Both the position numbers and the translations under genes were made by a program. Source: Candidatus Altimarinota bacterium (lineage in GTDB: Bacteria; Patescibacteriota; Gracilibacteria; BD1-5; UBA6164). Taken from it: a DNA stretch of 64,000 bases. Below are positions 5,701 through 54,909 of this stretch, one piece after another; position 1 is the stretch's first letter, and every line of letters starts with the position of its first letter. The DNA is taken from assembly GCA_028698305.1 (NCBI GenBank), contig JAQVDN010000006.1, positions 1 through 64,000 on the forward strand. Direction: 5' to 3'. Below the pieces are notes generated by a model. It ran no database searches. It was not told the origin of the DNA and was given only the letters and a program-made list of their open reading frames with translations.

Positions 5701-6164
5701 TAATACTTTGAGTATTACTTATATTTGTTTCTACTAGATATAGTAGAAAATATGGTGATAACTTGGTTTGAGAGTTTAGTTTAAAAAACTTGAAAGATGA
5801 AAATAATGATAAAGTTGAAATAAAACAAAAAGAAGAAAAAGTGAGAGCTGATGATGATAATAGAAAACAAAAAATAACATCTCAAATTAAAAATATAGAC
5901 TTAAAATGAATAACTAGTGCTACTTTTAAGATAAATTGAAAAATAGCATTTTCTAGTAGAAGTAAGAATATACTTCAAATAGTAGTTTATGTTATAGAAA
6001 AAACTTGATTAAAAGAATTTCAAGCACAAGAACTTAAACCATTTTATGATTTTGTAACTAAAAATTATATAAGTGATTTAAATGCTCGTGATCTGGCAAC
6101 AATTCAAAATGCTTTTAAAAATTTTGTTGAAGCAGGTTGAGAAGTGTTACTAAAAAAAGAATAA
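2703..6164 (+). CDS. giant polytopic membrane protein, DUF2339 family
   Basis: A 1153-residue integral membrane protein. Two N-terminal transmembrane helices are followed by a charged coiled-coil (about residues 65-150), then LLAKIGSILVFIGVLFLLS and more than twenty further hydrophobic helices with the DUF2339 pattern (WALPSLWKIIIGFIIGFSIYF, then INPFLIGGNSTSPYTLVGYS). It closes with a soluble C-terminal region of about 130 residues. DUF2339 proteins are widespread and functionally unassigned. Dozens of in-frame TGA codons are present, mostly where helix-packing glycines are expected. It follows the calcium-repeat protein by 2 bases, so the two may act together in the envelope. Confidence 0.85.
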
Positions 6165-6184
6165 GCAAAGCTTATTCTTTTTTT
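6152..6184. terminator. bidirectional terminator between DUF2339 gene and idi
   Basis: A 15-bp stem with an AAA loop, A run on one side and T run on the other. It contains the last codons of the plus-strand gene and the stop codon of the convergent idi gene, and so serves both. Confidence 0.8.
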
Positions 6185-6702
6185 AATTCTCAAAACAATT
6201 CATCAAAATATTCATCTACTATCTTATAAAACCAAGCTGTATAATCTTGTTTATTTTTTTGTATATCTATTTTTAAATCCGATGGTGAAATCCATCTATA
6301 ATCCATAGCTTCTTCTCTATTTAAATCAGGTTCCTTATCATAAAATCATTTATAAACATGTAGATATTCATGTTCAGTGAGTCACTTATCTAAAATTGCT
6401 TTATAAATAAACTCTGTTTTTTTAGTAAGTTCTGTATCAAATCACATTTCTTCTTTTAGTCTTCTATGAATTGCATTTTCTAGAGTTTCATTTTCTCTAG
6501 GATGAGAACAACAAGTATTTGTCCAAAGTCATCAAGAATGATATTTTCACAAATCTCTTTGTTGAAGCATAAGTTCTCATTTTGAATTGAAAACTAGTAT
6601 AGAAAAAGCTCTGTGAAGTAGAGCTTTTTCATGAACTTCAATTTTTTCTCAGATTCAAATTTGATTATCAAACTCATCAACTATTATTATATTTTCTTGC
6701 AT
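6172..6702 (-). CDS. idi: isopentenyl-diphosphate delta-isomerase, type 1 (Nudix fold)
   Basis: Interconverts isopentenyl and dimethylallyl diphosphate, the two building blocks of isoprenoids. The 176-residue protein shows the family signatures: HRAFSILVFNSKGELMLQQR, then GLWTNTCCSHPREN with the catalytic Cys and metal-binding His, followed by the Nudix-like stretch RRLKEEMGF and the EHEYLHVY motif with the metal/catalytic Glu. Length matches bacterial type 1 enzymes (about 180). It is the last gene of a run that starts with the alpha-2-macroglobulin gene and begins 2 bases after sufS. Other isoprenoid genes are not in the window, so how IPP is obtained (own pathway or host) is open. Confidence 0.9.
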
Positions 6703-6704
6703 TA

Positions 6705-7901
6705 TTACTTTTTTAATTTATCTATTACATCAAAAAATTTATCTATATCCTTTTTTGTATTATAAAGATACAAACTAACTCTTATAGAGTTAGGATATCA
6801 AGATTTTGCAAAAAGTGGATGAGCACAATGTTTTCCTGCTCTTACAGCTATACCATTTTCAGCTAATACTTCTGCAACATCATTTGAATGATAATTATTT
6901 AAAACTATAGAAAATACTCAAACTCTATTTTTTTTCTTATGACTTCATATAATTTCTATATTTTCATAGTCTTTTAATCTTTCTAAAAAATACTCAATTA
7001 ATTCTTCTTCTATTTCTTCTATTTTTTCAAATCAACCTATATCTTCTATATATTCAAAAGCTTTTAGTAAAGAAACTGCTCAAACTACATTTGGAGTACC
7101 TGGTTCAAATTTATCTGGTAATCAAGCACTTGTATATTTACTACAAGTTACTTCAGAGATTGCTCAACCTCATGAAAAACTAGGAGTTAATTCATTTAAT
7201 AAATCTTTTTTTCACCATAAAACTCAAATACCACTAAGAGCCATAACTTTATGTCATGTGAAAAATAATGCATCACAATTAAGTTTTTTAACATCTACTT
7301 TCATATGTGGTACACTTTGGCTTGCATCAACTACAAAAAGTGTGTCTTCTCTTTTTCTTCTACCGATTTCTGCCAAATCAAAAACTTGTCATGTCACATT
7401 TGAAACATGAGTTAAAGCTATAACTTTTACTCTATCGTCATATTTTTCATCAAAATCAGCAAGATCTAGATTATAATCAGAATCAACTCATATAAACTCA
7501 ACATCTACTCAAATTTCTTCTTTTAAAATAAGCCAAGGAACAAGATTTGCATGATGTTCAACTATACTAACTAAAATCTTATCTCAAACTTTTAAAAAGT
7601 TACTTTTTTTCAAGCTAGAAGTAAGTAAATTACTTGCATAAGTAGAATTGTAAGTATAGATTATCTCTTTTATATCATCTGCTCATATATGCTTTGCAAC
7701 AATTTGTTTTGATTTCTTATACAGTTTTTCAGAGTTTATAGCTATATCATAAAGTCATCTATGTATGTTACTATAATCATTTTCTAGATATTTTTTTACT
7801 CCATCAATTACTTTTTCAGGTTTTTGAGTAGTAGATGTAGAATCAAAAAAAACTAAGTCAGGATTATTTTTAAAAATAGGAAAATCTTTTTTAAAACTCA
7901 T
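6705..7901 (-). CDS. sufS: cysteine desulfurase, SufS/CsdA family
   Basis: A PLP enzyme that takes sulfur from cysteine for Fe-S clusters and other thio-compounds. The 398 residues contain HHANLVPW (PLP-stacking His), VVDASQSVPH, the Schiff-base lysine in FFTGHKVMALSGIG, the segment FEPGTPNVVG and the persulfide cysteine in RAGKHCAHPLF, typical of the SufS group. The usual SufBCD/SufU neighbours are missing; instead it sits 2 bases from idi and 1 base from an unknown anchored protein, so the gene order looks rearranged. One of several conserved glycines is coded by TGA. Confidence 0.92.
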
Positions 7902-7902
7902 A

Positions 7903-9135
7903 TTATTTTTGTTTAAGTATAATGTTTAAATAAAACTTTTTTCAATCAAATGCTCAAACTCTATTATCAATTAAATCTTCATAAATAACTTTATCAAGTC
8001 TATATGATTCAAAATAATAAGGAGTTTCACGACTAACTATAAATTCTTCTTTTCTATTTACTTGCATACCAGAACTAAACCAAAATTTGGCATAATTATC
8101 AAAACTAGTATATTCAGTATTTAACTTAGAATAAACTAAAAATTTTATAAATAACTCTTTTAATTGATAATCATTATGTTCTATTTTTTCTATCTCATCA
8201 TAATATTTTGAAAAATCTTTTCAAAGATTATTAAGTATTCAAACTAATAAGATTTTTGAAGTATTATCCAAATTATCAAAAGATGATTCAAGTTCTTCTA
8301 TATTTTTTTGTATATCTTCATTGTCCTTTTCTTTCAAACTTAATATATAAGTTTCAAAAGATTTTACATTTAAATTATTTCAAAAACTAGAAAGTAAATC
8401 TGATATATTTCATCTACTAGATAAAAAATCATCTAGTTCTCAAAGTTCATTTAAGAAAAATATATAAAGTAATTTAGAATAATTATCAAAACCATTAAAA
8501 TTATCTTCTATATCTTGTTTTAACAAATTTAAAAATTCATTATCTATATCAACTCATGATTTTCATAGATATGAAAGTAAAAAATACTTATCTATATATT
8601 CTTCACTAGCTAAAAAAGAAAGTTCAAAAATCTCTTTTTCTTTTGAAACTAGATTTTGATAATCAGTTTTTCAAGTCAAAAATGGCGCAATTTTTAGATT
8701 ATTATTTTTAAAATATGCTTCTAAATAATTAACAAATATGTATTTATATATATCTTGATTATCCGATAATAATAAATCATTTACTAAAAATGTCATCTTA
8801 TTATTTGCAAAAAGAAAATCTATTTTTGATTCACTATAATTTTTTAAATCTTTATTATGTTCTATATCAAAATCTGATAAAGTTGGTATATTAGGCATCC
8901 ATTTTATTTGATTTATATCAGGTATATAGATAAACTCTTTTTTAAGATTAGTTATATAAAATCAATCTTCTTGTTTATAACTTGATAAATAATCATTTAT
9001 TTCCTCGTTATATGATACAAGTTTAGATTCATAGATCTTTTTTTGTTTATTTTTTTCATATGTATTAAATCCTAAAAAAACTAAAAAAATGATTAATACA
9101 AAGATAAATATAAAAAATATTTTTTTATTTTTCAT
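7903..9135 (-). CDS. membrane-anchored helical protein of unknown function
   Basis: Not recognised. The 410 residues start with a basic tip and one transmembrane segment (IFFIFIFVLIIFLVFLGF), so the rest is probably outside the membrane. The exported part is acidic, lysine-rich and predicted mostly helical, with many LL/DN/FLN patterns as in helical-repeat proteins, but no clear TPR consensus. It lies between pbpC (71 bases upstream) and sufS (1 base downstream) and is probably part of the same transcript, which hints at an envelope role. Confidence 0.75.
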
Positions 9136-9206
9136 AACAAAATATATATTTAATTAATTACTAAATTGGTAATATTATATGAAATTTAAGTTTATTTCAA
9201 ACTATT

Positions 9207-11078
9207 TTACTTTAAATAAAATCTCAAATCAAAAAGTTTTTGCTCTTCATAATCATTAAGTTTTTGTAAAACATCTTTTCTATCATAATAATTATCTCTT
9301 ATCCTAGAAAAATAATCTTTACCAGAAAAATCAAAGTTATTTTCTACTCTATGACAATTTACATCTAAACAATATGATTTTTTTTCTATCCCTTCTGGTA
9401 TATCATAATCATAATTTTTTATATATCCTAACTTAATTGCTTCTTCTATTACTTGATGCCAAATGTAACCTGCTCATGTTATACCAGTTACTCAATTCAT
9501 AGATGAATTATCATTGTTTCATACCCAAATTCAAAGCACAAAATCACTATGATATGAAATTATAAGATTATCTCTAAAATTGCTACTTGTACCTGTTTTC
9601 ACTGCTTGTGGTATGGAAGTATTAAGGATTGAATTTACTCAAAAACTTATATCTCTATTATCTGGATTAGTTAAAATATCATAAAGTAAAAACTTATTTT
9701 TATCTCTTAAATCAGTCAATCTTGCATAGCTATAAACAAGATCTTGCAATGTTATACTTGGATTTCATAAAACTAAACTATAACCATAATATTCAGGAGT
9801 TTCAGTTAATTGAAATCAATAATCTTTATAATAGTTATAAACATTTTCAAGTCATAATTCAAAAGCTAATCTAACAGTTGCATTATTCAAACTATTTCAT
9901 AAAGCATTTTTAAATCTGACAAGACCATATTCTTTTAAAGAGTAATTATTACTTATATAAGTCTTATCTTCACTAAATGAGTTATATTCATTTTCTATAT
10001 CCAAGAGTAAATTATTTACTCAATAACCTTTTTCCAAAGCCATCAAATATAAAAATGGTTTCATCGTACTTCATGGTTGTCTTTGAGATTTTATAACATT
10101 TACTTGTCAATCTATTTTCTTGCTGTAAAAATCTCTACTTCCTTCATAGATGATGATTTCCCTAGTTTTTGGATTTATAGCAAAAACTGCAGCATTTGTT
10201 ACATTTTTATCTTTTAGTTCATCTAGTGTTTTATTTACTATGTCACGAGTAAAGAGTCACAATTTAGAATCAATTGTAAGTGTTTGATTTGTAGAAATAA
10301 GTTCATTACTTGCAAAAGGAAATAAATCAATATTTTGTTTTTTAGAAAGTTTTTCAATAGTCCTTTCAAAATCAAATCAAAGTTTATTTTTCACCTTATC
10401 AAAATAATTACTAAATTCTTTATCATAGATAGATTTTGTAGCTGGGTACTTTATCAAAGACAAAAGTAAAACTATTTCTTCATCAGTTAGATCGGATAAA
10501 TCTGTTTTTCAAAAATAAACTTCAAGTGCTGCTCCTACTCAATAATTATTATTTCACAAATAAACATTTTGCAAATATTGACTGAGAATCCTATTTTTTC
10601 AAGTCCCTCTCCCTAACCCTCCCCCCAAGGTAGAGGGAATATAAGGAACAGAAAAATAAAAAGCCAAAAATCATTCTCTTGCTTTTTGTAAATATGTTCT
10701 TTTGTTTTCAAGAAAAAAATGATTTTTTATATATTGTTCAGTTATAGTACTAGCTCATGAGACTATTTTTTTATTTTCAAGATTTGACTTAATAGCTCAC
10801 AATTTTGAAATAATATCAACTCAAAAATGATTGTAATAATTTTTATCTTCTATCAAAATAAGTGATTTAACAAACTTACTTTGCAAATCTAAGTCTATTA
10901 TTTTTTTATAACCAAATTCTGTTGCTTTATCTGTTATAACAATTCAATTTCTATCTCTTAAAAAAATATGACCTGGTTCATCTTTTGGAGTAAAAAAAAT
11001 AACTGGAAAAAAGCAGTAAGATAAAAAACTTACTGCTAAAATTCAAAATATAATAAATGTAATTTTCTTTTTAGTCAT
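9207..11078 (-). CDS. pbpC: class A penicillin-binding protein, PBP1C type
   Basis: Bifunctional peptidoglycan synthase. The 623-residue protein has an N-terminal membrane helix, a GT51 glycosyltransferase domain (catalytic Glu in LIEDKNYYNHFGVD near residue 80; SGASTITEQ), and a transpeptidase domain with the SxxK motif in QPGSTMKPF (Ser337) and KTGTS from Lys494. It starts 4 bases after the alpha-2-macroglobulin gene, the same pairing as yfhM-pbpC in enterobacteria. Odd feature: between AFYFS and KNRILSQYLQNVY a GC-rich element (10603-10638) adds about 12-15 residues, among them PSTLGGGLGRG, to a surface loop of the GT51 domain. The usual C-terminal PBP1C extension appears short or absent. 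Confidence 0.92.
10603..10638. repeat. GC-rich palindromic element, copy 1, in frame inside pbpC
   Basis: About 35 bases of C- and G-rich sequence (CCCTCTCCCTAACCCTC, then a G-rich half ending TAGAGGGA) stand out sharply from the surrounding AT-rich DNA. The ends can pair (TCCCTCT with AGAGGGA). It aligns over most of its length with the element at 19169-19204 in opposite orientation, sharing the core CCCTAACCCTC. It has not broken the reading frame. Confidence 0.75.
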
Positions 11079-11082
11079 AAAA

Positions 11083-14000
11083 TTACTTCACTTCAATAAT
11101 ATTAAACTTACTATTTGCTCTTATAACTGGATCATACATAAGATAAGCTGAAACAGGTGGATAAGTATAAGTTCATGCAAACTCTGGTCTGAAAAAATAC
11201 TCATATTCTGCATTTTTTCACCAAATATAGCTTGCATTCGCCATAACAACATCTGGTTTATTTTCAACATAATCCCAAGACCAATTTCTAGTAGAACCAG
11301 TTACACTTGCACTTTCTGTTTTAAATTTAGAATTTATAACTCTAAAACTTCAAGGAAGATAATCTTCTATAGTCAGGTTTCTTCTAGATTTATTATCTGT
11401 AAAATCAACTGTTATCCTAGTTTTATAAAGTTTTCATAATTCAAAATTATTTCAATTAACTTTTTCAAAAACTGAGTCACAATTAACTTTATTTTTTTCA
11501 TAATAATAATAAGTATTTGAACATTTTAAAAGTAAATTTTCATCTTTTACCTTATATATTTCTCTTTTAACTGTCATCCCATTTGTATATGGTTCTATTT
11601 TTGTAACATCAAGAGGATATTCTTTGAGTACAAAATCTACAAATATCTTATTTTCACTATTGTTTCAAACAGATAGATTTAAATTATCTCATGAAGATAC
11701 ATTTGCAAGATTATAATTTAGTTTCAACATAGCTAGATTATCTCAACCTAGATTATATTTTTTATTATCTGAAAAATTTCATAATCTAAATGAAAAATTT
11801 GTTTTAGAATTTAATTTATTTTTTTCTAGATATTTATAAAAAGCTATAAAAGCATTATTTTTTGATTGAGTGCTATAATAATAACTTGACCAATCATAAA
11901 GATATAAATCAGCGATAAGACTTTCAATATAAGAATCATAGGTACTATCTTTTAGATCAAGTAACAATGATGCAAATATAGCTTTATCAGAAGTAGTATC
12001 CCAATACCAATTTGAATCCGTTTGAGTTATTTTTTTCTTTATCAATTCTATATTTGATTTGATAAGTTCTGTATCTTTTTTATCAGATAAAACAAGTCCA
12101 TAAGTATAAGCAATCAAACTATGTCTATCTAGTTTTAATGGTTCCATAACTAAATTAGGATTTTTTCAAGCAGATTTAAGTGCCCAAAATATCTCAGATT
12201 TTTGAACATCATCACTAGCATTTTCTAGATTTTTTTCTAAATAACTAATAGCATTTTCTATAACCTTATCTTGAATTTTAATTCAAGATTTTTTCATATA
12301 TAAAAGGCTTCTAAGTACATATGGAGTTATATGAAGATCTGAACTACTATTTCATTGCCAATAAGCAAATCATCAATCAGCTACTTGCATAGAATAAATC
12401 CTATCTATTCCATAATTTATACTCTTTTCTACCTTATCTTCATCAAATAAGTCAGCAAATAAATTAGAAAATTGTTTGATAATAACATTTGGAATAGTGC
12501 TTGAAGTTGTTTGCTCTATACAACCATATGGATAAATATATAAGCTTGAAACAATTTTTTCTATTCAAGATAATCTAGAATTTGAAAAAACAAGTTCTAC
12601 ATTTGATAGATTTTTATCAGTATTTTTTCAAATAAATGATTCTAGATTTAAAGAACCATAAGATTCTATTATACCAGATTTTAAAACTTGATTTATTAAA
12701 ACTGGTGATTTTTTTATCTGTATTTTATTCTCAATCTTATCGCTATTTATAGCACTATCTCAAAGTGCACTTATAGTATAAACTATTTCATCAACACTAC
12801 TATTTGCTTTTACTTTCCATGATATATTTTTACTTTCTTTTGCTTTTAGAGTCAATTTTTTTTCAGGATCCGTTACTTCAACTCATATAGTTTTTATATC
12901 TACTTTAAAATCTATATCTTTATCAGTATTGTTAAATAAATTTGCACTTATAATAGATTGATCTCAATCTCTCAAAATTTGAGGAGTTTTATCTTCTAAA
13001 ACTACTTCTTTTCTTACTTCTATATTATTTTCACTATAACCAAAATTATTAGTTTTAGAATTTGAAACTGCCATTATTCTAAAATTTGTTAGATTGTCTG
13101 GCAAAGTAAAAGTTACACTAGCTTTTCAATTTCAATCAGTAATAATACTAGGATTAAAATAAGCAGTATTTTTGAAAATATTTCTTGTACTAACTGCACT
13201 ATCTCATCATTTAAAATCACCATATCAACTTCATCAAACTATTCATAATCTAGAAAAATAATAATTTTTTATCATACCTATATTTGTAATACTTGTTTGT
13301 ATACTAAAAGGTAGCTTTATAAATATCTTTTCTAGTGTGTTTAAATCTACATTTCACATAAGACTTATAAGAGAATCATCAACAACCATCAAAGTTAATT
13401 CACTAATAAGAGGTTTTCATTTAGCATCTTTAACAAGTAAATCAACTTTTACTTGTTCTCTTGGCTTATAAGTTTGTTTATTAGTTTTTATATCAATAAA
13501 TGATTTTTTATCTGATTTATCAACAACTATTTCTGTATATCAAACCTTATATTCTCATCAAACTTTTGTATCAATCATAGCAACTCCGATATAAGAATTT
13601 GGAGCAAAACTTTCGTCAATACTAAATTCTTTGAAAAATATATTTCATGGAACTTCTATATATTCATAATGTGTAACTCATGATTTTTCTATAGTCCAAA
13701 GGATTTTAGAGTTACTAACAGGTAATCTAACTAATACTCTTGCAGTTTCTCAAATCTTATAACTTACTTTCTCGCTTAAAACTCTTAGTTTATTGTCATT
13801 TTCTATTGGATTATTAGACTCTAAATCACTATAAGAAATAAGTGGTAAATATCTTGCTCTAGATATAAAATCTCTTAAATAAAGTCTTTTTGTTATTATT
13901 TCATTATTACAAATTTCTCACTCAACACAATCTTGTTTTGGAGTTTCTAAATAATTTTCTATATATAAACTTTTTTCACTATCAAATTTATTAACTATTT

Positions 14001-44725: not shown

Positions 44726-44847
44726 AAAAACAAAAAAATTACAAAAATAAAAACTCTGTTTTTAAGTGTATCATTTTTGTAATCATTTTGGCAAAAATTT
44801 TGAGTTGACGAAGTGGGAAAAGTGAGTTTAGGTAATTATTTATTATT

Positions 44848-47800
44848 TTAAGAATAAACACTTATTCATTCTCAAACATAATTATCATAAACATAAAAAT
44901 AAACATCATCTACTTTTTCTTTTAATACAATTTCATTATAACTCTGTGGTAATTCATCATATAAAAAATCCTCAATTGTGATTTTTACTGATGCTCTAGT
45001 ATCCGCTTTTTTTCTCCAATCTAAAACAAGTTTTTCACTTCTTAATTTTTGAAGTAATTCATGAGCTATTTTTTTGATTTTCTTTTCTTCGTCTGGACTA
45101 ATATCTTCTTTTAAAAGTATATCAAACAAAGCTAATTCTTCATCTGTTAATCATTCCATTTTTCATCTTCTTTCTTCATCATTTAACATTTGAGCTAAAA
45201 CTACAAGTGAATTAAATGTATCATCTATATTTTTAGATCAAGAGTTATATTCTCAAAGTATAAAATTTAATTTATCAATAAATTTTTTTCTTGATTTGTT
45301 TTTTCTCACCATTTCCTCAATTTTTTCTTCAATAGCCGTTTTAAAACTTTCAAGTTGCATATTTTTTCTACTACTTACAAAATAGTTTTTTAGTGCTTCA
45401 AAATCAATCTTACTTAAATCTTTTACTTCAAATTTTTTCTCTATTTTATACTTTTCAGTTACCAAAGAATAATCAAGTAAATCTTCCATTTCTTTTTTTA
45501 TTTCATCCAAATTATAATCATCTATAGAAAGACTTCTAATTCTTTCATTTATGATATTTAATAACTGAATATATTCACTAAATTCACTTGCTTTTACATC
45601 TGGTAAAATAGCTTTGTATAATAGATTTATTTTTGAGAATCTGTTTTGAAATTCTTTTTTTGTTTTTTCACTTGTTAAAACAGTGTTTACAAAATCTTCA
45701 ATTGTTTGTATTCTATAAATTCAAGAAACTTTAAATATATCAGATAAACTCAAATTCAATCACCTCAAAAAATAAACCATTTCTGACTGTTCTTGTTTTA
45801 ATTTAATTACAAGTTCTCATTTTTCTTTTATGATATCTCAAATTTGATTTCACTCTTCTGTTGTTGCATAAATAGAAAGTGCTTTTTGAAGATTATAAAA
45901 AACTCCGATATAATCCACTATCAAACCATTTGTTTTTTCTTTATAAACTCTATTTACTCTTGCAATAGTTTGCATAAGAGTATGATTTTTTAGAGGTTTA
46001 TCCAAATACAAAGTGGTCATATCTGGCACATCAAAACCTGTAAGCCACATACTACAAACAAAAACAAGTTTTAATTTCTTTTCTCATACTTCATAACTAG
46101 TTTTTTTGAAAAGTGTTTCTAAATCATCATTTTGTATTCTTTTTCTAATTGGTGCAAAATCAATTCACAATTCTCTAAAAGTAGCTATTTCATTTTGATT
46201 ATCTCATAAGCTTATCATAACTGAAGTATCCAGTTCATCTAAAAACTCTAATCTATTTTCTAGTTCTGCTTTACGAGTATTTGTAAGTCTAGTTTTTAAT
46301 TCTTTTTCAATACTTTCTCTATATTTTTTTAGTTCTTCATTTACTTTAACATACATTTTTACAGCTGTTTTTTTATCAATAGAAACAACCATTGCTTTTC
46401 AAGTATTTCATCTTTCTAGATAATGATTAACTATATCAAAAGCAACTTTATTAAGTCTATCTTCTGAAGTTAAAATCTTGTATCAAACTTGAAACTTTTT
46501 CTCTAATTCTTCTGATTCTTCATCATTTAAATTATAACTATCTTGTATTTTATCTATTTCAGCCTGTAAGCTAGGATTAATATTTTCTACTTCTGGAACT
46601 CTATTTTCATAATAAATTGGAACTGTTGCTCAATCTTCTACAGACTGAGCAAAGTTATAAACAGAAACATATTCTCAAAATACTTCTTTTGTTTTTTCTT
46701 TTTCTTCAGCTATTAAAGGAGTTCAAGTAAAACCAATAAAACTTGCATTTGGGAGAGATATTCTCATATTCATGGCAAGTGTACTATATTGGCTTCTATG
46801 AGCTTCATCAGTGATAATTATGATATCATCTCTTTCAGATAATAATTCAGGATCTTGAAATTTATGAATAAGTGTAAAAATATATCTATGATCTGCTTTT
46901 AATAATTTTTTCAAATCAGCTACACTTTCAGCATGAGTTTCTTTTGTTTTTACTATTCAAGCATTTTTATAACCTTTTGCTATTTGTTTATCTAGTTCTG
47001 TTCTATCTGTAACAATTACAAAAGTAAAATTTCCTTTGAATTTTCTATTTATTTTTTGAGTTAAAAACATCATAGAATATGATTTTCCACTTCATTGAGT
47101 ATGCCAAAAAACTCAAAGTTTCCCTTGTAGTTGTTTTCTATTTTCTACATTTTTTAAAGCTTTATTCACTCATAAATATTGATGATTTCTTGCTACTATT
47201 TTTATAATATTTCCTTTTGATTCATCAAATAAAGTAAAGTTTTCAAATATATCTAAAAATCTCGTTTTATCACAAGTTCATTTTATAATAGTTTCTAAAC
47301 TTACTTTTGGAGTTTCGTTTTCGTCAGTTACTTTTTTCCAATCATTGAAATGTTCAAATCATGAACTTATAGATCAGATCTTACTATCTATTCCATTTGA
47401 AATAATGAGAAAAGTATTATACCAAAATATTTGTGGTATAGTATTTTTATAGTCAGCTATATTATTATAAAAAGCATCTTTTAGATTTTTTCAAGCTCAT
47501 TTTAGCTCAATAAAGATCATAGGAATACCATTTACAAACCCGATTAAATCAGGTCTTCTTATATACAATTCTCAAGTAATCCACATTTGACTCACAAGCA
47601 TAAAATCATTATTTTCTGGATTCTCTAGATCTAGAACTTTTACTTTTACTATTTCATTATTTCCATCATCATCTGTATAATTCACAGTAACTCAATCTTT
47701 TAGTAAATCATGTATTTCTTTATTTGCTCTATCCAAAGACAAAGTGCTTCTATCTTGAGTTATTATTTCAAGAGTTTTCAAAATCCCCTCACTTGGTAAG

Positions 47801-47991
47801 TCAGGATTAAGTTCTCTTAATTTTGGTTCAAGGTATTTTGTAAGAACTACTTCTCATCTATTGTTTCTTGCTAGTTTTTCTTCACCTTCTTTTGTGAAGG
47901 CATCTATAAAGCAATCTTTTGACCAAAGATGCCTAAATATTTCAATTGCAGTTTTTTCTACAAGATTGTTTTCTGTGAATTGGTTAGTCAT
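44848..47991 (-). CDS. hsdR: type I restriction enzyme, R subunit
   Basis: Motor and nuclease of a type I restriction system. 1047 residues: N-terminal nuclease domain with PDLIGFVNGIPMIFIELKGA (PD-(D/E)xK residues), SF2 translocase with Walker A HTQGSGKS (about residues 300-307), DEAH at residues 395-398, IGFTGTPL, MWLTGFDVPDMTTLYLDKPL and QTIARVNRVYK, and a helical C-terminus that binds the methylase. It belongs with hsdM and hsdS upstream, but five cargo genes lie between. The first 16 codons are duplicated at 49003-49051, where they form a dead-end reading frame. Confidence 0.96.
47944..47991. repeat. direct repeat, native copy (5' end of hsdR)
   Basis: The 48 bases that encode the first residues of HsdR (MTNQFTENNLVEK and on) recur at 49003-49051 in the same orientation with two substitutions and one inserted T. 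The two copies flank the zeta-toxin module. Confidence 0.9.
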
Positions 47992-48054
47992 TATTTGTAT
48001 ACATTTTTGTTATATAAAAAAAGTTTAGATTGCTCTAAACTTATAAATAAATCA

Positions 48055-48210
48055 CTAAAAACGAGCTATTTTTTTAATTTCTTCATACATAGCTTTTGTT
48101 TTTGAATTCTTTTCAAATAACTTTTTTTGTCTTTGAAAAGATCATTCTAATCATTGTAAAACTAATTTTTTAAATTGTTTTTCTTTTTTTTCTCTTTCTT
48201 TTTTAGTCAT
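48055..48210 (-). CDS. 51-aa basic protein overlapping the zeta-toxin-like gene
   Basis: Small, strongly charged helical protein: MTKKEREKKEKQFKKLVLQG and then LEGSFQRQKKLF, ending EEIKKIARF. It begins 49 bases before the stop of the zeta-like kinase gene and is read in another frame, so the two are translationally coupled. Toxin-antitoxin modules often show such overlap, although in known epsilon-zeta systems the antitoxin comes first. It has TGA codons at QG and EG. Antitoxin function is a guess. Confidence 0.6.
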
Positions 48211-48983
48211 AGTATCTCAATTATAGATTTAAATAAAAATTTTATTTTGTATCTAATAGTTAATTTTTTTCTAAATAATTCATCTAAATTATCAATTAAT
48301 CAGTTTAATATATCATTATTATAGCTAATTCCAATCTTTTTGTCAAAAGATTTTTTGTCCACTATTTTTTTATTTATATTAAAAAGTCATTTAGAATTTT
48401 TATATGCAAATAAGAAAAATATATCTGTGTATTTTTTCTTTATTTCAAAGGCATTATTTATAGAATTTAAAAATTTTTCTATAAATACATCTTTTGGTAC
48501 ATTTCTTTTTCACTCTATTTCTCTCAGCTTTGTATAATAGTATGATAATAATGGATCTTGATATATCAAAACAACTCAAAAATCCCTTTTATGTTTTATA
48601 CACATTGAAATATTTTGTTCTACAACATTTTCATTTCAAAAAGTTCCATCTACTATTACATTTAAGTCATTTTTTATACAATAACTATATATTTTATTTG
48701 CTACTTTAGTTGATAATCACTGAAACTCAGAAGCATTTTTTCAAGCATATCAATCAAATAAAATTCTATATTTATCTATATCTATGATTATAAAATTGTG
48801 ATTATTTTCTATACTTTCTATAAATTCTGTTTTTCAAGCTCCTGGTGCTCAAGCAAGAAATATGACACTCGGAGTAATATCTCAATTAGTTTTAAATTTA
48901 TCTATTCAATTTTTTTCATATTCTGAAATGATAAATTCAAATATTTGTTTTACTCCTTCTTGATTTGGTTGAAATTTTTGCAT
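48162..48983 (-). CDS. zeta-toxin-like P-loop kinase
   Basis: 273 residues. Walker A LAGAPGAGKTEF (residues 43-54, two of its glycines are TGA), then IIIDIDKYRILF with the acidic pair, and NVIVDGTFGNEN, which is the zeta toxin / UDP-sugar kinase pattern (substrate-binding DxDxxR, strand plus DGT). A helical, lysine-rich C-terminus follows. Zeta toxins phosphorylate UDP-N-acetylglucosamine sugars and block wall synthesis; other members phosphorylate other small molecules. The gene lies between duplicate copies of the hsdR start together with a 51-aa partner, so it looks like an inserted module. Confidence 0.78.
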
Positions 48984-49051
48984 ACTTTTATAATAAGATG
49001 TAAATTGCAGTTTTTTTCTATGAGATTGTTTTCTGTGAATTGGTTAGTCAT
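48950..49051 (-). pseudogene. orphan copy of the hsdR start, dead-end reading frame
   Basis: Reads MTNQFTENNLIEK, then goes out of register with HsdR because of one extra T and meets a TAA after 34 codons. It starts 6 bases after the 381-aa gene, in the place where hsdR would be expected to start, and overlaps the first codons of the zeta-like gene. Interpreted as the remnant left when the zeta module was inserted. Confidence 0.75.
49003..49051. repeat. direct repeat, second copy (hsdR 5' end)
   Basis: Copy of 47944-47991 with an extra T in the T run and CAAGA changed to TGAGA. About 1.0 kb separates the copies. Confidence 0.9.
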
Positions 49052-49057
49052 GGTAAA

Positions 49058-50203
49058 TTATTTATTTAAATTATTTCTATATAAATCATTTTTTAAATTT
49101 TCAAAATTATTATTATATAATAAATCAAACTCTTTTTCATTTTCAATAAATATATTATGAATTTTACTATCACTGTATCATTGCTTTTTTCTAGCTCATA
49201 TAACATCAAATACATCATTATCTAAAGAATACTTATAAAGTTTATAAAAATAACTTGATTCTTTCATTTTAATTATAGATTTATTTCATAAATACCAAAC
49301 TTTAAATCAATGATGTTCAATATCTCTTATATCATACTCGAAAATTTGATTATTAACATCTTCTTCTGTCATATCAGGTAAAGAATTAATCCATACTATC
49401 ACATTTTGTGCTTCACTATCTTTATTTAATATATCTAAAATTAAACTATAAATTTCTTTTCATATAATTTTTTTTAATTTATCAATAGAAAAATGTAATT
49501 GAGGAAATCATGGAGTATCTATTCAAAACTTTTTACTAAAATCATATTCATAAACTCATAATGGATACTTAACTAAGTGCAATATTGTTAAAATATAGAT
49601 AACTGATTTAAAAAATTGGTAGTATTTGATAAAAGAAGATTCTTCAAATGTTTGACAATTACTTTTCATTTTTCACATACTATTTGTATATTTATATCAT
49701 TTTGTATGAACATAATTATGCAAATCAGATAACTTTAATATTTCTTTTTTAAAGTTAATTTTATTATTTAGTATTTTAAAGTTTTCATGTTTAGATATTT
49801 TATTCCAAATATCTTCAAATCTTGGAGTATTTTCTTTTGACCTATGCCATTCTTTAATATCTTCATGTCAATTATCATATAAATTCCAAAAAACTGATAG
49901 CATTCACAATTCTAAAACTCATCTTAAAGAAACTATTGCTTGCTTATAAAATCAAAATAACATTAAATTATATGAAACCTGTAATTCCTCAAAAGAGTCA
50001 ACAAAAGGAGCAAAATGTCATGAAAACATATTATCAAAAGTATGAGGAACAAGTCCTCATACTGCATGATATAACCAAAAATAATCGTAAAAATCTTTCT
50101 CAATTGAATTATTATTTTTAATAAATAACTCAGTTTCTTCTTTTACATCAATACTTTTTTCAGTTTTATATGTTAATGGTAGCATACTTTTTTTACTTAA
50201 CAT
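49058..50203 (-). CDS. hypothetical protein of the restriction island (381 aa)
   Basis: Not assigned. 381 residues, no membrane helix. Segments such as YKQAIVSLRGVLELGMLSVF, then LSDLHNYVHTKGYKYTNS look like the HEPN-like/abortive-infection proteins often found in restriction loci (helical, with a His close to an R/N-rich turn), but the match is by feel only. The C-terminal half has an alpha/beta character (QNVIVWINSLPDMTEEDV, IEHHGFKVWYLGNKSII) suggestive of a second domain. Its start overlaps hsdS by 11 bases, and its stop lies just before the hsdR start copy. TGA codons are frequent. Confidence 0.65.
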
Positions 50204-51353
50204 CTAAACTCTCAACATCCAACTCACCACTCACAAGTCTTGGAATAAGCAAATCTCTTGTTTCTTTTAAATTTTGATTTTGTTTTTTAATATTTCAAAT
50301 TTCTAAAAATAATTTAGAAACTATTTCTTCAAAATCATTTAATAGATTTTCAGGAATATATAAAGATAATAATCACATTATATCTTTTGGATAAACATGA
50401 GGTTGTGCAGATCATCTTTGTAATCAAGTAATTTCAACTTGTCTATTTATCAATTGTAAATACCAAAAGTAAACAAAATTTGTAACTTTTCAGTCAATAT
50501 ATGAACAATCAGATGCCCAAATATCATCATAATAAAAATTAACATATCAAGCATTAGCTCAAGAAGCACTTATTGTAATTACTGGTCACATTGTATTTGA
50601 AATATTATGATAACATGAAGGACTTAATCATCATGCTACTACTGGAATAATTCATTCCTTAACAGTAGCTTTTGTTATATTCTTTCATTTAGGAATATTT
50701 ATAATATCTCAAATCTTCTTCACTTCCCACCCTTCAGGTATCATCCTAAAATTATCATTTCAACTCTCAATCATTTTTATATTTTCACTTCACGGAAAAT
50801 TATATTTCACAAACCATTCTTCATAAATACTTTGTGCTGTTTCTTCTAAAATATTTATTCTTTTATTGTTATTTTCTATTAAATCATCATATTTTGAAAG
50901 TATTGAAGCTATTTTTTGTTGGGTTGAAAGTGGTGGGAGAAGAATTTCAATTCTTGATAAACTAGATTGAGACAATTTTGGTTGTGCTGCTCAAGTTATA
51001 TATCATCAAATATCATTTCAAGAAAACCAATACATTATAAAATCAGTATCAGCAATGTTTGATTTTCATAAAATAATATGAGAGTGATTATTAACCCAAA
51101 ATTTTCATTCAGCAAAAAAAGCAATTGGAGTATTTCTTTCAGTTAAATTTGCTCAATCTTCAGAAATTAATAAATATCTTCAATCAAAAATAAAATCATC
51201 AATGTAATCAATAATTCAAGATGCTCAATAATATGGATAATTTCCTTGTTTTTTAGTTCTTTGAATTGTACTTAATGGAATTCTTCTATTATCAAAAAAA
51301 TCAATAATATCTCATAATCTTACTTTTTTCCATCATTTTTTTATTTCTTGCAT
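50193..51353 (-). CDS. hsdS: type I restriction enzyme, specificity subunit
   Basis: 386 residues with two target-recognition domains, each followed by a helical spacer. The first spacer is [21 protein letters not shown] and [20 protein letters not shown]; the second is [20 protein letters not shown], then [18 protein letters not shown], the standard HsdS C-terminus. The two TRDs read half sites of a bipartite DNA target and guide HsdM/HsdR. Overlaps the 381-aa gene by 11 bases. Confidence 0.94.
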
Positions 51354-51358
51354 AGTTT

Positions 51359-52081
51359 TTATTTTTTATTTAAAATATATGAATTACAAAAATTAACAGC
51401 ATCTTTATTAAGTTTTTCTAATTTATCATGATTAGATTTTTGTAAATAAGAGTATTCATCTCAAATTAACTTTACTCAAATCACTTCTAAAGAAGGAATT
51501 ATAACTTTATCTCAACAAAAATTTAAAAAGTAATATTCTTGATTATAAAAATATAATTCTCATATTATATTAGTTCAATCTTTCAATTTTATATCAACAT
51601 ATTTTGAGGCAAATACATTAAATCAAAAAACTGAAAATATAAGTATAAAAACTAAACTAATTATTTTTAAAGTAAATTTATCAAATTCAGATTTATTTAA
51701 TTTATTTCTAAAATTTTCATATTTTTTTGGAAAAAATTTTCTTAAAATCGGTTTTCAAAAAAATAAAATAAAAAAGTAAATAAATATAAATATTTTTCAA
51801 ATAATTCATAGTCACCAAAAATGGACTATACCATATAAAAATAATCAAAAAATAAAGAAAAATAATGATGGAACAGACAAAATAAATAAAAATAAAAATA
51901 TAATAAACAAAATTATTGAAAATTTTAAACTTACATAGAAAAATCATTGAAAACCAGAATAGCTCATCAACATAATAAGTTGAAAAGCTACTCATAATCA
52001 ATAAACAGAAGATGTAATGAGAATTTTATTTTTTTCTATAAATTCTCAGAATTCTTTGATTTTATCTATATATTGTTTCAT
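51359..52081 (-). CDS. membrane protein inside the hsd locus (240 aa)
   Basis: Not recognised. About five hydrophobic helices (ILITSSVYGLGVAFQLIMLM, FSIILFIIFLFLFILSVPSLF, FTLKIISLVFILIFSVFGFN) and then a short extracytoplasmic beta-like tail (VDIKLKDGTNIIGELYFY) with a final Cys-containing helix. It lies 5 bases upstream of hsdS, cotranscribed with it. A fragment of the hsdM 3' end lies just before its start. A membrane protein in a type I restriction operon is unusual; it might be the effector of another defence module. Confidence 0.7.
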
Positions 52082-52097
52082 GATATTTTTTCTTTAT

Positions 52098-52119
52098 TAA
52101 ACTAATTTACTCATATTTT
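52098..52119. repeat. direct repeat, hsdM 3'-end copy B
   Basis: Twenty-two bases identical to 53206-53227 in hsdM. On the minus strand they still read NMSKLV followed by TAA, which is the exact C-terminus of HsdM. Confidence 0.85.
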
Positions 52120-52128
52120 TAAATTTTA

Positions 52129-52157
52129 TTGTCTTTTTTAATAAAATTTTATATAAT
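52129..52157 (+). promoter_or_regulatory. promoter of small RNA gene 1
   Basis: TTGTCT (52129-52134), 17-bp spacer, perfect TATAAT (52152-52157) on the plus strand, opposite to all surrounding genes. Confidence 0.7.
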
Positions 52158-52163
52158 CTAATT

Positions 52164-52235
52164 ACTTAGATGTAGCTTTCTTAATCTTTTAAGAAAGTAG
52201 ACCCCCTTGACTTCGGTTTTAAGGGGATTTTTTTT
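52164..52235 (+). ncRNA. small RNA gene 1 in the hsd island (candidate)
   Basis: About 72 nt from the predicted start to the end of a T8 tract. It forms two hairpins: CTTTCTTA/TAAGAAAG (52176-52183 with 52190-52197, six-base loop), and a strong terminator CCCCTTGAC-TTCG-GTTTTAAGGGG (52203-52226) with a UUCG tetraloop. There is no reading frame. GC content is clearly above the surroundings. No plus-strand gene follows, so this is not a riboswitch. It lies between two copies of the hsdM tail. Function unknown. Confidence 0.68.
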
Positions 52236-52247
52236 ATATTAAAATAT

Positions 52248-52266
52248 TTTACTCATATTATCAAAA
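52248..52266. repeat. direct repeat, hsdM 3'-end copy C
   Basis: Matches 53214-53232 in 18 of 19 bases; on the minus strand it reads FDNMSKIF and TAA, against FENMSKLV and TAG in HsdM. Confidence 0.7.
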
Positions 52267-52313
52267 AAAATTTAAAATTTTTTTATCACTATATTAATAA
52301 AACTAAAAATCTT

Positions 52314-52342
52314 TTGACTTTTTGATCAAAAACTTATATAAT
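52314..52342 (+). promoter_or_regulatory. promoter of small RNA gene 2
   Basis: TTGACT (52314-52319), 17-bp spacer, perfect TATAAT (52337-52342) on the plus strand. Confidence 0.75.
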
Positions 52343-52348
52343 GTATTT

Positions 52349-52417
52349 AATACAGCTGGTCGTAGGTTTCCGTCAGGGAGCTTCATCTTCTTTGAAGATA
52401 TACCAGTTGTTTTTTTA
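52349..52417 (+). ncRNA. small RNA gene 2 in the hsd island (candidate)
   Basis: About 68 nt. The outer stem CAGCTGGT/ACCAGTTG (52353-52360 with 52402-52409) closes a branched structure and, with the T run that follows, also acts as the terminator. Inside are a TTCC-GTCA-GGGA hairpin and ATCTTC-TTT-GAAGAT (52385-52399), so the RNA would be a three-way junction. It shares a GTAG-x-TTTC stretch with small RNA 1. Its 3' end is 5 bases from the stop of the convergent DUF3800 gene. No coding potential. Function unknown. Confidence 0.7.
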
Positions 52418-52421
52418 TTGC

Positions 52422-53186
52422 TTAAAATCTTGTTACTCTACTTGAACTTTTAGGCTCAACATCAATATACTGCTTTTTTGCAATTATTTTTTCATAATGT
52501 TTAAATAATTCTTTTCTCATAAATCAAGATTTTTCAATATTTCATAAATAACTTGCTGTTTTATAAGCTCAATAAATATATCAAATCACATCTGATAACT
52601 GCATAAGATAAGAATTGTAACTATCTGTATAATAAACAGTATCTATTAAACAATTTATAGATTTTTTTCTTAATCAAAATGAAGTTCAATTCTTTTTATA
52701 ATCTTGAAAATTATTTATAATATTTTGTTCAGTTTCTAAATTTTTATCCATTATTATTAATCATTTTTTATCATTATCCTCTAAAAATCTATCTATTTTT
52801 TCAATTAAATACATAAAAGATAAATAATGTGGATGATATGGATTATCATATTTTGATTTTAAATATTGTTTATTTATTCATTGAGAAAAAAATTTAATAT
52901 CATATTTTTCAAAAATATTTATAAGTCATTCAAAGGCTTTTAATCTTTCATCAATTTTAAAGTTTTTAAAATATTTTTTTCATCAAGCCATATCAATAGC
53001 ATGAAATTCAAAGTCAAAGTTTTGAGAAAATGGTAAAAAATTTATTTCTAAATTTTTCATATCTTTTTCAATATTTTGAATATCATTAAAATTAACTCAA
53101 ATTCAATTTATAAAATGAATTGGTTGTTCTTTATTTTCTAAATCATTTCAAGTATTTCATGATTCATCAAGATAAAATAACATCAT
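52422..53186 (-). CDS. DUF3800 family protein
   Basis: 254 residues. N-terminal LFYLDESGNTGND is the DUF3800 hallmark, with further acidic positions in FEFHAIDM, GLIIMDKNLETEQN and YLMQLSDVIGYIYGAYK, arranged like an RNase H-fold nuclease core (DE..D..D). These proteins are common near restriction systems and other defence genes, but their activity is mostly unknown. It lies 18 bases after hsdM. Two ATGs are adjacent; the first was taken. The preserved acidic residues suggest an active enzyme. Confidence 0.82.
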
Positions 53187-53204
53187 AATATTAAATTTAA
53201 AAAA

Positions 53205-54722
53205 CTAAACTAATTTACTCATATTTTCAAAAATGCTTTTTTCTAATTCATGAGCCTCTTTTGTTAGAACTTTAAAGTCTTCATTTAATCTACTTATTTT
53301 TACACTAAAATCTTCATCATTTACTTTTTCTTTTTCAGTTACTCAAACATATCTTCATGGATTTAAACTATATCATTGTTCTTTTATTTCTTCTAAACTA
53401 GCAACTTTACAATAACCTTTAACATCTTTATATTCTTCAGCTCAATCTTCTCATCTATAAGCTCTTACAGTATTTGCTATTTTTTCTATATGCACTGGTA
53501 AAAACTCTCTATGAGCTCTATCTATTTGATTATATAAATCTTTTGCATCTATAAAAAGTACTTTATTTTTTCTTGGAGTATTTGCTTTTGCTTTATCCAT
53601 AAACCATAAAGTACAAGGCAAAGTTACATTGTAAAACATATTTGGTCATACGGAAACCATTACATCTATAGCATTGTCTTCTATAAGTTTTTTTCTAATC
53701 TCATTTTCAGTATTTCATGCATCACTTGCACTATTTGCCATAACAAATCAAGCTCTTCATGTATTATTTAAAGCACTATAAAAAGCCTGTACCCATAGAT
53801 AATTTGCATTATCATTATTTGGAATTCAGAAATTGTATCTTGGATCATCTTTGATTTTTTCTTTATCTATTTGTTTTAGATTAAAAGGAGGATTTGCCAT
53901 AACAAAATCAAACTGACCTATACTTTTATGCATATCTTCATACATCGTATTTCAGTTTTTTATATCTCCACTTAAACCATTTATAGCTAAGTTTAGTTTT
54001 GCTATTTTTACTGTTTCTGGTGTTTTTTCTTGACCATAAACTGATATTTCTTTTGTTGCTTCAGATAAGTTTTTTTTGTGTTCTTTAATAAAGTTTAATG
54101 ATTGTACAAACATACCTCAAGAACCACAAGCTGGATCATATATTTTACCATGATATGGTTCTATAATCTCTACTATTAGCTTTACTATTGAAGTTGGAGT
54201 AAAAAATTCTCATCATTTTTGACCTTCTCAAAGTGCAAATTTACCTAAGAAGTATTCATAAATACCTCAAAAAGCATCTCATTCTATATTATCTGGTATA
54301 GAATTGAAATTCTTTAGTAAATCTATAAGAGTTGATTTTTCTTTAAATAGATTATATGATTTTGGAAGAATTCATTTCAAATCTGGATTATTTTCTTCTA
54401 CTTCTTTCATGGCTTCATTTATAGCTTTACCTAGATTTTCACTTTCTGGTAAATGTAGTAAATAATTGAAGTTAGAATGAGCTCATAAATAAATCACTCA
54501 TTTTGCATGATAGTGATCTGACCTTAATTCTCTTTGTCTTCAGTTTGAATTACTATATTCTTTTTCTAGTTCAGCTTTTGCTTTATCAAATCTAACTTGA
54601 GCGAATTTCAAAAATATCAAGCCCAAAATTGGTTCTGATAAATTACTTAGTTTTAATCATTCATTTCACCACACTTTACAAGCTGAATCCCAAAGTGTTT
54701 TTTCTAGTTTTATTATGTCCAT
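53205..54722 (-). CDS. hsdM: type I restriction enzyme, M subunit (adenine methylase)
   Basis: 505 residues. N-terminal helical domain ([22 protein letters not shown], an HsdM_N pattern), SAM-binding motif I DPACGSGGMF preceded by [17 protein letters not shown], catalytic NPPF in [13 protein letters not shown], and [10 protein letters not shown]. The C-terminus GYSLNPGRYVG then leads to FENMSKLV. It methylates adenine in the target chosen by HsdS. It is the first gene of the island. Its last codons recur twice downstream (52098-52119 and 52248-52266). Confidence 0.96.
53206..53232. repeat. hsdM 3' end, native copy of the tail repeat
   Basis: Source copy for the two tail fragments at 52098-52119 (22 of 22 bases) and 52248-52266 (18 of 19 bases). 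Confidence 0.85.
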
Positions 54723-54909
54723 GTTTTTTTGTTATTAACTAATTATTCTTATTACTAAATTACCTACAATATAACCACTTCTCTATTTTTTTCAATAAAA
54801 ACTTGTATTTTATGCTAAAAAACTACCCCTAAATTTTAATATAGTTTTAATGTCATATACAAATTTCCTCTACTTTAAAAGAAAATATTTTCATTTAATT
54901 TTAAAATAT

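Follow-up and report, generated by a model that had tools for sequence, protein, structure and literature searches.

We analysed a type I restriction-modification (RM) operon in which the ends of hsdR and hsdM recur beside small modules, among them a zeta-toxin-family kinase gene and its small neighbour. The operon lies in a 64,000-nt stretch (the window, whose positions are used throughout) of contig JAQVDN010000006.1 (GCA_028698305.1) from Candidatus Altimarinota bacterium, a very small and mostly uncultured member of the class Gracilibacteria; the assembly of this genome comprises 1.29 Mb in 18 contigs, and TGA reads as glycine in it. The order of transcription, on the minus strand, is hsdM, DUF3800 gene, 240-aa gene, hsdS, 381-aa gene, kinase gene, 51-aa gene and hsdR. 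The features are as follows, with identities to a relative, G044, that carries the same operon.

53205..54722, minus strand: hsdM, type I methyltransferase, 505 aa (PF02384, E 3.6e-95; 90% identical to G044; last codons FENMSKLV-stop)
53206..53231, minus strand: hsdM tail, source of the tail copies (repeat comparison)
52422..53186, minus strand: DUF3800 protein, 254 aa, first module after hsdM (PF12686, E 1.1e-15)
52352..52416, ends approximate, plus strand: small RNA 2, a three-way junction and then a U-run, convergent with the DUF3800 gene (predicted fold)
52240..52265, minus strand: hsdM tail copy 2 (17/18 over 52248-52265)
52165..52235, ends approximate, plus strand: small RNA 1, hairpins of which the last (52203-52226) is terminator-like (predicted fold)
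52098..52123, minus strand: hsdM tail copy 1 (25/26), ending 16 nt ahead of the membrane-protein start
51359..52081, minus strand: 240-aa membrane-like protein without family match, located after tail copy 1 and ahead of hsdS
50193..51353, minus strand: hsdS, specificity subunit, 386 aa (family match)
49058..50203, minus strand: 381-aa gene of the RM operon, read as having adjoined hsdR on its upstream side until the insertion (87% identical in G044)
49003..49051, minus strand: orphan hsdR head, read as the ancestral junction of the 381-aa gene and hsdR (46/49 columns identical to the true head)
47992..49002, minus strand: cassette of about 1.0 kb read as inserted, kinase plus 51-aa gene (absent from G044)
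48162..48983, minus strand: zeta-toxin-family kinase, 273 aa (PF06414, Zeta_toxin, E 1.8e-24; PezT 2p5t profile match)
48055..48210, minus strand: 51-aa gene, candidate antitoxin, overlapping the kinase end (relatives beside other kinases)
47943..47991, minus strand: true hsdR head, second copy of the duplicated border (repeat comparison)
44848..47991, minus strand: hsdR, 1047 aa, intact (88% identical to G044)

Repeated hsd gene ends and their counterparts in a relative

The first 49 nt of hsdR (47991 to 47943) recur at 49051-49003, where 46 of 49 alignment columns are identical; two substitutions and one extra A separate the copies, and their first 29 nt are the same. With up to 3 mismatches allowed, this 29-mer has only two sites in the 1.29-Mb assembly, and a reversed control pattern has none. 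The hsdM tail at 53206-53231 recurs at 52098-52123, with 25 of 26 positions identical including the first 22, and a third copy at 52240-52265 agrees in 17 of 18 positions over 52248-52265. Allowing one mismatch at most, an 18-mer of this tail has three sites in the window and no site in any of 100 dinucleotide shuffles; at 3 mismatches the excess is not significant (5 matches vs 2.5 expected), and a 19-mer at the hsdM gene end gives 4 matches vs 0.52 expected. When the window was scanned for direct repeats at most 3 kb apart, low-entropy ones excluded, the hsdR-head and hsdM-tail pairs ranked first and second of the five local direct repeats found.

The initial annotation had placed the hsdR copy at 49003-49051 and the tail copies at 52098-52119 (22/22) and from 52248 onward, next to modules holding a zeta-like kinase, a 51-aa gene, DUF3800, a membrane-like protein and two RNA-like elements, and these observations are confirmed. 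Its statement that every copy keeps the orientation and coding sense of its source holds for the strand, all copies lying on the minus strand like the source genes, but not for the frame: the extra A shifts the orphan hsdR head after codon 12. This head now opens a 33-codon open reading frame (ORF) that overlaps the kinase start.

Relatives of hsdM (E 1e-40) occur in 6 of 48 genomes of the family, the window's own included, and one of these, G044, is close (90%). Viral contigs yielded no hsdM relative. At E 1e-10, a search of 353 class genomes finds the 381-aa gene in two, those of the window and of G044. G044 carries the same RM operon, with 88-91% DNA identity where the two can be aligned; parts of hsdS, the specificity gene, cannot. 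In G044 a 383-aa gene overlaps one single hsdR start, and the kinase is absent there. Window positions 49012-50340 align to G044 in one unbroken stretch that runs from the 381-aa gene into the orphan hsdR head, of which it covers 40 nt; the complete hsdR gives a separate alignment. Because this alignment is unbroken and the G044 junction is single-copy, we read the orphan head as the ancestral border and 47992-49002 as the insert. A relative free of the module and with a single-copy junction, which the initial annotation had proposed to look for, thus exists on the hsdR side. On the hsdM side G044 likewise has a single tail, with no repeat found in the scan, but the site is not empty: the tail is followed by different cargo of 76 and 121 aa, neither of which has a Pfam match. 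Since G044 bears other cargo there, the site after hsdM is variable. At E 1e-5, G044 contains no counterpart of the window's DUF3800 protein.

The RM island as a whole (window 44833-54730; 4025-11727 of the corresponding locus, L015) is common to two genera at about 88-91% DNA identity where aligned. Its alignment ends at window positions 44833 and 54730, only a few bases beyond the ends of hsdM and hsdR, and the sequences on either side are unrelated. That the whole island had itself been inserted with target duplication was considered and rejected, as no direct repeat was found at its ends in the window or in G044.

The kinase cassette and repeats at related loci

Profiles of the kinase family match the structures of PezT (2p5t, E 1.3e-9) and zeta (1gvn, E 1.1e-5), and the P-loop residues G45, P47, G48, G50 and K51 are invariant across 13 aligned sequences. 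The kinase is matched at E 1e-12 in 23 of 353 class genomes. By BLAST, 8 of 9 other, nearer kinases have a relative of the 51-aa gene beside them, and an ORF of 43-65 aa follows all 22 untruncated kinases, its likeness beyond the nine nearer ones being judged by eye and without a control. Neither the 51-aa gene nor the few related small partners that were searched has a credible match in Pfam, NCBIfam or PHROGs, and neither cassette gene of the window matches a recombinase or nuclease family. Epsilon and PezA antitoxins lie upstream of the toxin and are longer; upstream of the kinase described here we found the orphan hsdR head and the 381-aa gene and no epsilon/PezA-type antitoxin gene, the small gene lying downstream. 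The kinase and the 51-aa gene are most likely a toxin-antitoxin pair, with toxicity presumed, and the small downstream partner may represent a widespread, unnamed antitoxin candidate. By eye, an ORF of 43-70 aa with a motif ..GS..Q.. or ..A(N/S)..Q.. stands behind most kinases read (loci L095-L117, L138-L152 and part of L174-L215), and many kinases on viral contigs have small ORFs of similar appearance behind them. A weak plasmid ctRNA match in Rfam, below the gathering score, covers 48010-48075.

We then compared 1 kb upstream with 1 kb downstream of each kinase gene and counted direct repeats scoring at least 22. The first set contained 22 of the 23 class loci (the truncated L118 was left out), with 225 control ORFs of 600-1200 nt from the loci compared, 6 of them from a non-patescibacterial locus, L025. 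Flanking direct repeats were present at 9 of 22 kinases and at 1 of 225 controls, the sole positive control being the window's own DUF3800 module. Inverted repeats, used as an internal null, gave 0/22 and 0/225, and none reached the threshold in either kinase set. When genus g346, represented by three species, was counted once, the excess persisted (7/20, Fisher p 6e-8). A second, independent set came mostly from other classes of the phylum and, from 19 places, provided 16 loci, of which 14 were tested; the exclusions were the window's own genome, G347 as already represented, a second fragment from G305, L148 (short flank) and L149 (no kinase ORF). Here 3 of 14 kinases and 3 of 25 controls were positive (p 0.65), and because its controls are positive as well, this set proves nothing alone. 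Its three positive controls derive from two repeats: an A/T-rich repeat (L149) and a palindromic pair (L143) that surrounds two neighbouring ORFs, one of them a Y1_Tnp-family (IS200-type) transposase.

For the sets combined, the counts are 12 of 36 testable kinase loci vs 4 of 250 control ORFs (p 3e-9). Dropping doubtful cases on both sides (L098 and L144 among the kinases, the window's DUF3800 among the controls) leaves 10/36 vs 3/249 (p 7e-8), or 8/34 with g346 counted once (p 2e-6). A further repeat, of 53 nt and 85% identity at L099, was masked by the low-complexity filter and is uncounted. The direct repeats are long and variable across the kinase loci, about 25-260 nt. Among kinase relatives on viral contigs, 1 of 40 had a flanking repeat, a short AT-rich match; these 40 were drawn from 57 loci, leaving out L204 (short), L213 and L214 (no ORF) and repeated proteins. 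As only this one viral kinase is repeat-flanked, being flanked by repeats is not an invariable feature of the gene pair.

The repeats differ in kind from locus to locus. At L140 one duplicated stretch takes in the tail of a YdjM-family gene, the spacer and the beginning of the following gene, with 175 matches in 182 aligned bases and 76 nt missing from one copy; the first gene is whole at the left and the second whole at the right. At L116 the final 17 codons and stop of a fur-family gene recur behind the cassette. The tail of an MFS-transporter gene is present in three copies at L114, which enclose first the kinase cassette and next a DUF3800 gene (PF12686, E 7e-5); the full-length transporter ORF may have gained a new C-terminus. 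At L109 the repeat is the head of a small gene on the opposite strand. In three species of one genus (L101, L104 and L106), a hotspot upstream of a UvrD-type helicase gene was noted in which a 27-60-nt repeat divides kinase, DUF3800 and other modules. The DUF3800 module of L101 (PF12686) has the repeat on both sides and is unaligned in the fetched stretches of L104 and L106. In 195 kb of G498, about one fifth of that genome, no further copy of this repeat was found; several of its copies at the three loci contain a TATAAT-like motif.

Proposed insertion with target duplication, and its alternatives

We consider it likely that small cassettes entered the type I RM operon by insertion with target duplication. 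A 1.0-kb two-gene cassette, the zeta-family kinase plus the 51-aa gene, would have been inserted at the hsdR start, so that at least 49 bp at the insertion point now stand on both of its flanks. With the border duplicated, hsdR would have stayed whole and the upstream copy would have become the orphan head. Similar insertions after hsdM could have left the orphan tails between DUF3800 with RNA 2, RNA 1 and the membrane gene; serial insertion there is suggested by the repeats by themselves. The border-duplicating insertion proposed in the initial annotation is therefore upheld at hsdR, where G044 has the single junction and no kinase, and is less well supported on the hsdM side, where G044 holds different cargo. 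Gene ends would be where copies persist, since nowhere else would a duplication happen to leave both neighbours intact. Although direct repeats promote deletion, addiction would keep the cassette in place, as has been argued for RM genes.

The DNA step was probably carried out by host repair or replication acting on incoming DNA and not by a cassette transposase, which is unlikely because both genes lack a recombinase domain and repeats seldom flank the kinase's viral relatives. Candidate steps are template switching, repair of a staggered break, and crossover with a circle that carried a piece of the gene; either of the first two fits L140. The initial annotation had suggested recombination between short homologies as an example. 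A wider proposal, which we put forward tentatively and would not call probable, is that zeta-kinase/small-gene pairs and some DUF3800 and RNA modules are recombinase-free addiction cassettes that enter gene ends of Patescibacteria by long target duplication and stack in arrays separated by gene ends.

Several results weigh against insertion with target duplication. Upstream of the true hsdR start there is no significant trace of the tail of the 381-aa gene; 140 of 1000 shuffles match equally well, so a duplication spanning the junction is not demonstrable in the window. At L116, 5 of the 7 changed codons in the fur tail are synonymous, and at L109 the copies diverge unevenly; both fit donor and recipient alleles better than a fresh duplication. 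At the score of 22, 24 of the 36 kinase loci have no repeat, the L098 repeat folds as a terminator hairpin, that of L144 is a dispersed repeat, and 2 of the 14 loci of the second set (L151 and L153) hold kinase fragments only. The control ORFs were called mechanically and partly overlap, with code 25 in the first set and table 11 in the second, and the second set is not significant on its own. DUF3800 genes have flanking repeats in 1 of 19 cases, or 1 of 13 without six ORFs that were seemingly mis-chosen near contig ends. A cross-phylum check on the E. coli ccd insertion at folA-apaH found no target duplication. The ccd-bearing strains among the matches listed cover 95% of the K-12 query (L247) in two pieces, and the insertion seems to replace intergenic DNA and not to duplicate it, as judged by query coverage and not by aligned junctions.

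The first alternative is homology-anchored transfer, in which hsdR or hsdM DNA bearing the cassette came from another strain, recombined within the gene on one side and was joined illegitimately near the gene end on the other, so that the orphan end is a remnant of the recipient's own gene. It would suit copies that differ as alleles do: the synonymous changes at L116, the uneven divergence at L109 and, in the window, codon 11, which is ATA in the orphan head, as in G044, and GTA in the true head. An RM system common to two genera at about 90% identity and with unrelated flanks is also in its favour. Elsewhere in the head, however, the two window copies agree with each other against G044. Transfer of this kind also predicts a one-sided duplication, whereas L140 duplicates the tail of gene 1 as well as the head of gene 2, and it leaves the first arrival of a cassette beside each unrelated gene unexplained. 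We regard it as an unlikely account of the locus.

Far less probable is a self-mobile cassette: a minimal transposable unit made up of the kinase and small gene, or relying on a partner in trans, whose target duplications would be long and variable. The recurrence of a kinase/small-gene insert of about 0.9-1.1 kb between differing host sequences across genomes is what such a unit would produce, but neither window gene matches a recombinase or nuclease family, the repeat lengths vary from about 25 to 260 nt, and the viral relatives are flanked by repeats in just 1 of 40 cases. It is also very improbable that the copied ends are functional, as translational coupling or regulatory sequence selected before each gene, and are not insertion scars. 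Tail copy 1 does make a five-codon mini-ORF right ahead of the membrane gene, the head copy opens the 33-codon ORF over the kinase start and a TATAAT-like motif is found in several of the helicase-upstream repeats, yet G044 gets to hsdS and hsdR without such copies, and the repeats of other genomes are unrelated sequences of various kinds. Chance similarity in AT-rich DNA, dispersed repeats or misassembly, for which the base composition, the L098 hairpin and the L144 dispersed repeat might speak, can hardly account for tail matches that 0 of 100 shuffles reach at one mismatch, a head 29-mer confined to two genome sites or the want of any inverted repeat at threshold, and a usual sequencing read is longer than repeats of about 50 bp.

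Insertion with target duplication has a published precedent. Comparison of Helicobacter genomes led to the description of insertion with long target duplication for RM genes (Nobusato et al. 2000; Furuta et al. 2010, as cited in PMC3031569, PMC1643837 and PMC3874152; PMC2654758 has it among its references). Because the pattern at our locus matches such insertion, the mechanism is not undescribed, contrary to the initial annotation. In both, the insert is bounded by direct copies of the host target sequence, and a relative retains the uninterrupted single-copy target (here G044 for the kinase at hsdR; in addition, the L101 DUF3800 module is unaligned in L104 and L106). The duplications are likewise long and variable. 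No linked transposase was found here among the locus proteins scanned. Here, by contrast, the insert is a zeta-kinase/small-gene cassette, a DUF3800 gene or an RNA gene and the RM operon is the recipient; one gene end, the hsdM tail, is present in three copies; and the host is a patescibacterium. A toxin-antitoxin-like cassette and serial use of one gene end would extend the known mechanism.

Other systems share some of these traits. In E. coli, the DarTG2 toxin-antitoxin system is embedded between hsdS and hsdR, a site that its authors term a potential recombination hotspot (PMC12255303). The two-gene toxin-antitoxin-like unit of the window also lies between hsdS and hsdR; hsd gene ends are duplicated here, and none are mentioned for the DarTG2 locus in the part of its published account on which we draw. 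With epsilon-zeta and PezAT the cassette shares a kinase that matches PF06414 and the PezT and zeta structures and keeps the invariant P-loop residues; it differs in that the candidate partner is a gene of 43-65 aa downstream of the kinase. Small modules in a row, divided by a repeated sequence, recall integron gene cassettes, but here the modules are divided by a host gene end or a gene-border sequence, which is not the same from one locus to the next. Family searches, limited to 10 proteins of the locus, found neither an integrase, as in integrons, nor a transposase, as in composite transposons or insertion sequences.

A 2020 review describes, in a passage on the subject, how toxin-antitoxin systems integrate as unelucidated (PMC7167474). 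Titles and abstract openings, a sample that subscription papers and preprints mostly fall outside, contained no report of such a pattern for a toxin-antitoxin cassette in Patescibacteria. In several genomes we see a toxin-antitoxin-like cassette together with its insertion scars, and in one relative the site is still uninterrupted; the chromosomal entry of such cassettes thereby becomes testable with respect to duplication length, the side that is orphaned and self-retention. The locus also suggests how cargo accumulates inside restriction operons without breaking the hsd genes. If the wider proposal on recombinase-free addiction cassettes is correct, it would offer stand-alone toxin-antitoxin systems a general route into chromosomes, with addiction blocking the otherwise easy deletion between the repeats.

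DUF3800 modules, small RNAs and other features

DUF3800 as a generally repeat-flanked cassette was rejected on the 1 in 19 of the unbiased sample. On the plus strand, the predicted folds of the two small RNAs of the window beat all 200 shuffles (z -4.0 and -3.7), and the minus strand of RNA 1 also folds better than shuffles (z -3.5). Promoter-like sites on the plus strand, TTGACT or TTGTCT-17-TATAAT, lie upstream at 52314-52342 (RNA 2, with TTGACT-17-TATAAT) and 52129-52157 (RNA 1). Such sites are not enriched in the stretch (6 found vs 3.8 expected); terminator-like sites are (2 vs 0.1). Rfam has no family for either RNA, at this locus or, at gathering thresholds, at 11 related loci. A DNA search with the RNA regions in 48 genomes returned mostly short AT-rich matches, and the best other one, 41 nt of the RNA 1 terminator hairpin in G002, is read as a shared terminator.

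A structured RNA closed by a terminator and convergent with DUF3800, directly behind its stop, was seen at window positions 52314-52416 and at L101, L155 and L160. The arrangement was present at 3 of 19 tested DUF3800 loci vs 11 of 188 control gene ends (p 0.12), which is unconvincing; the test covered 19 of 23 DUF3800 loci, and L160, seen by eye, is not among the 19.

Two further loci hold ORFs between direct repeats. In a restriction locus, L050 (2738-4535), a 167-aa GNAT acetyltransferase ORF (PF00583, E 6e-5) is flanked by copies of a PD-(D/E)XK gene end, 71 and 28 nt long and 1.09 kb apart. At L096 (6295-6966), a 148-aa ORF stands between 42-nt direct repeats beside an Hsp70 gene and adjoins a kinase cassette that itself has no flanking repeats. 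In the window, the 240-aa membrane-like protein has no Pfam match, and the 381-aa gene (49058-50203) has no family match at the curated cut-off; it does contain a pattern, R...E...H..VH, which we take to resemble that of HEPN-like proteins.

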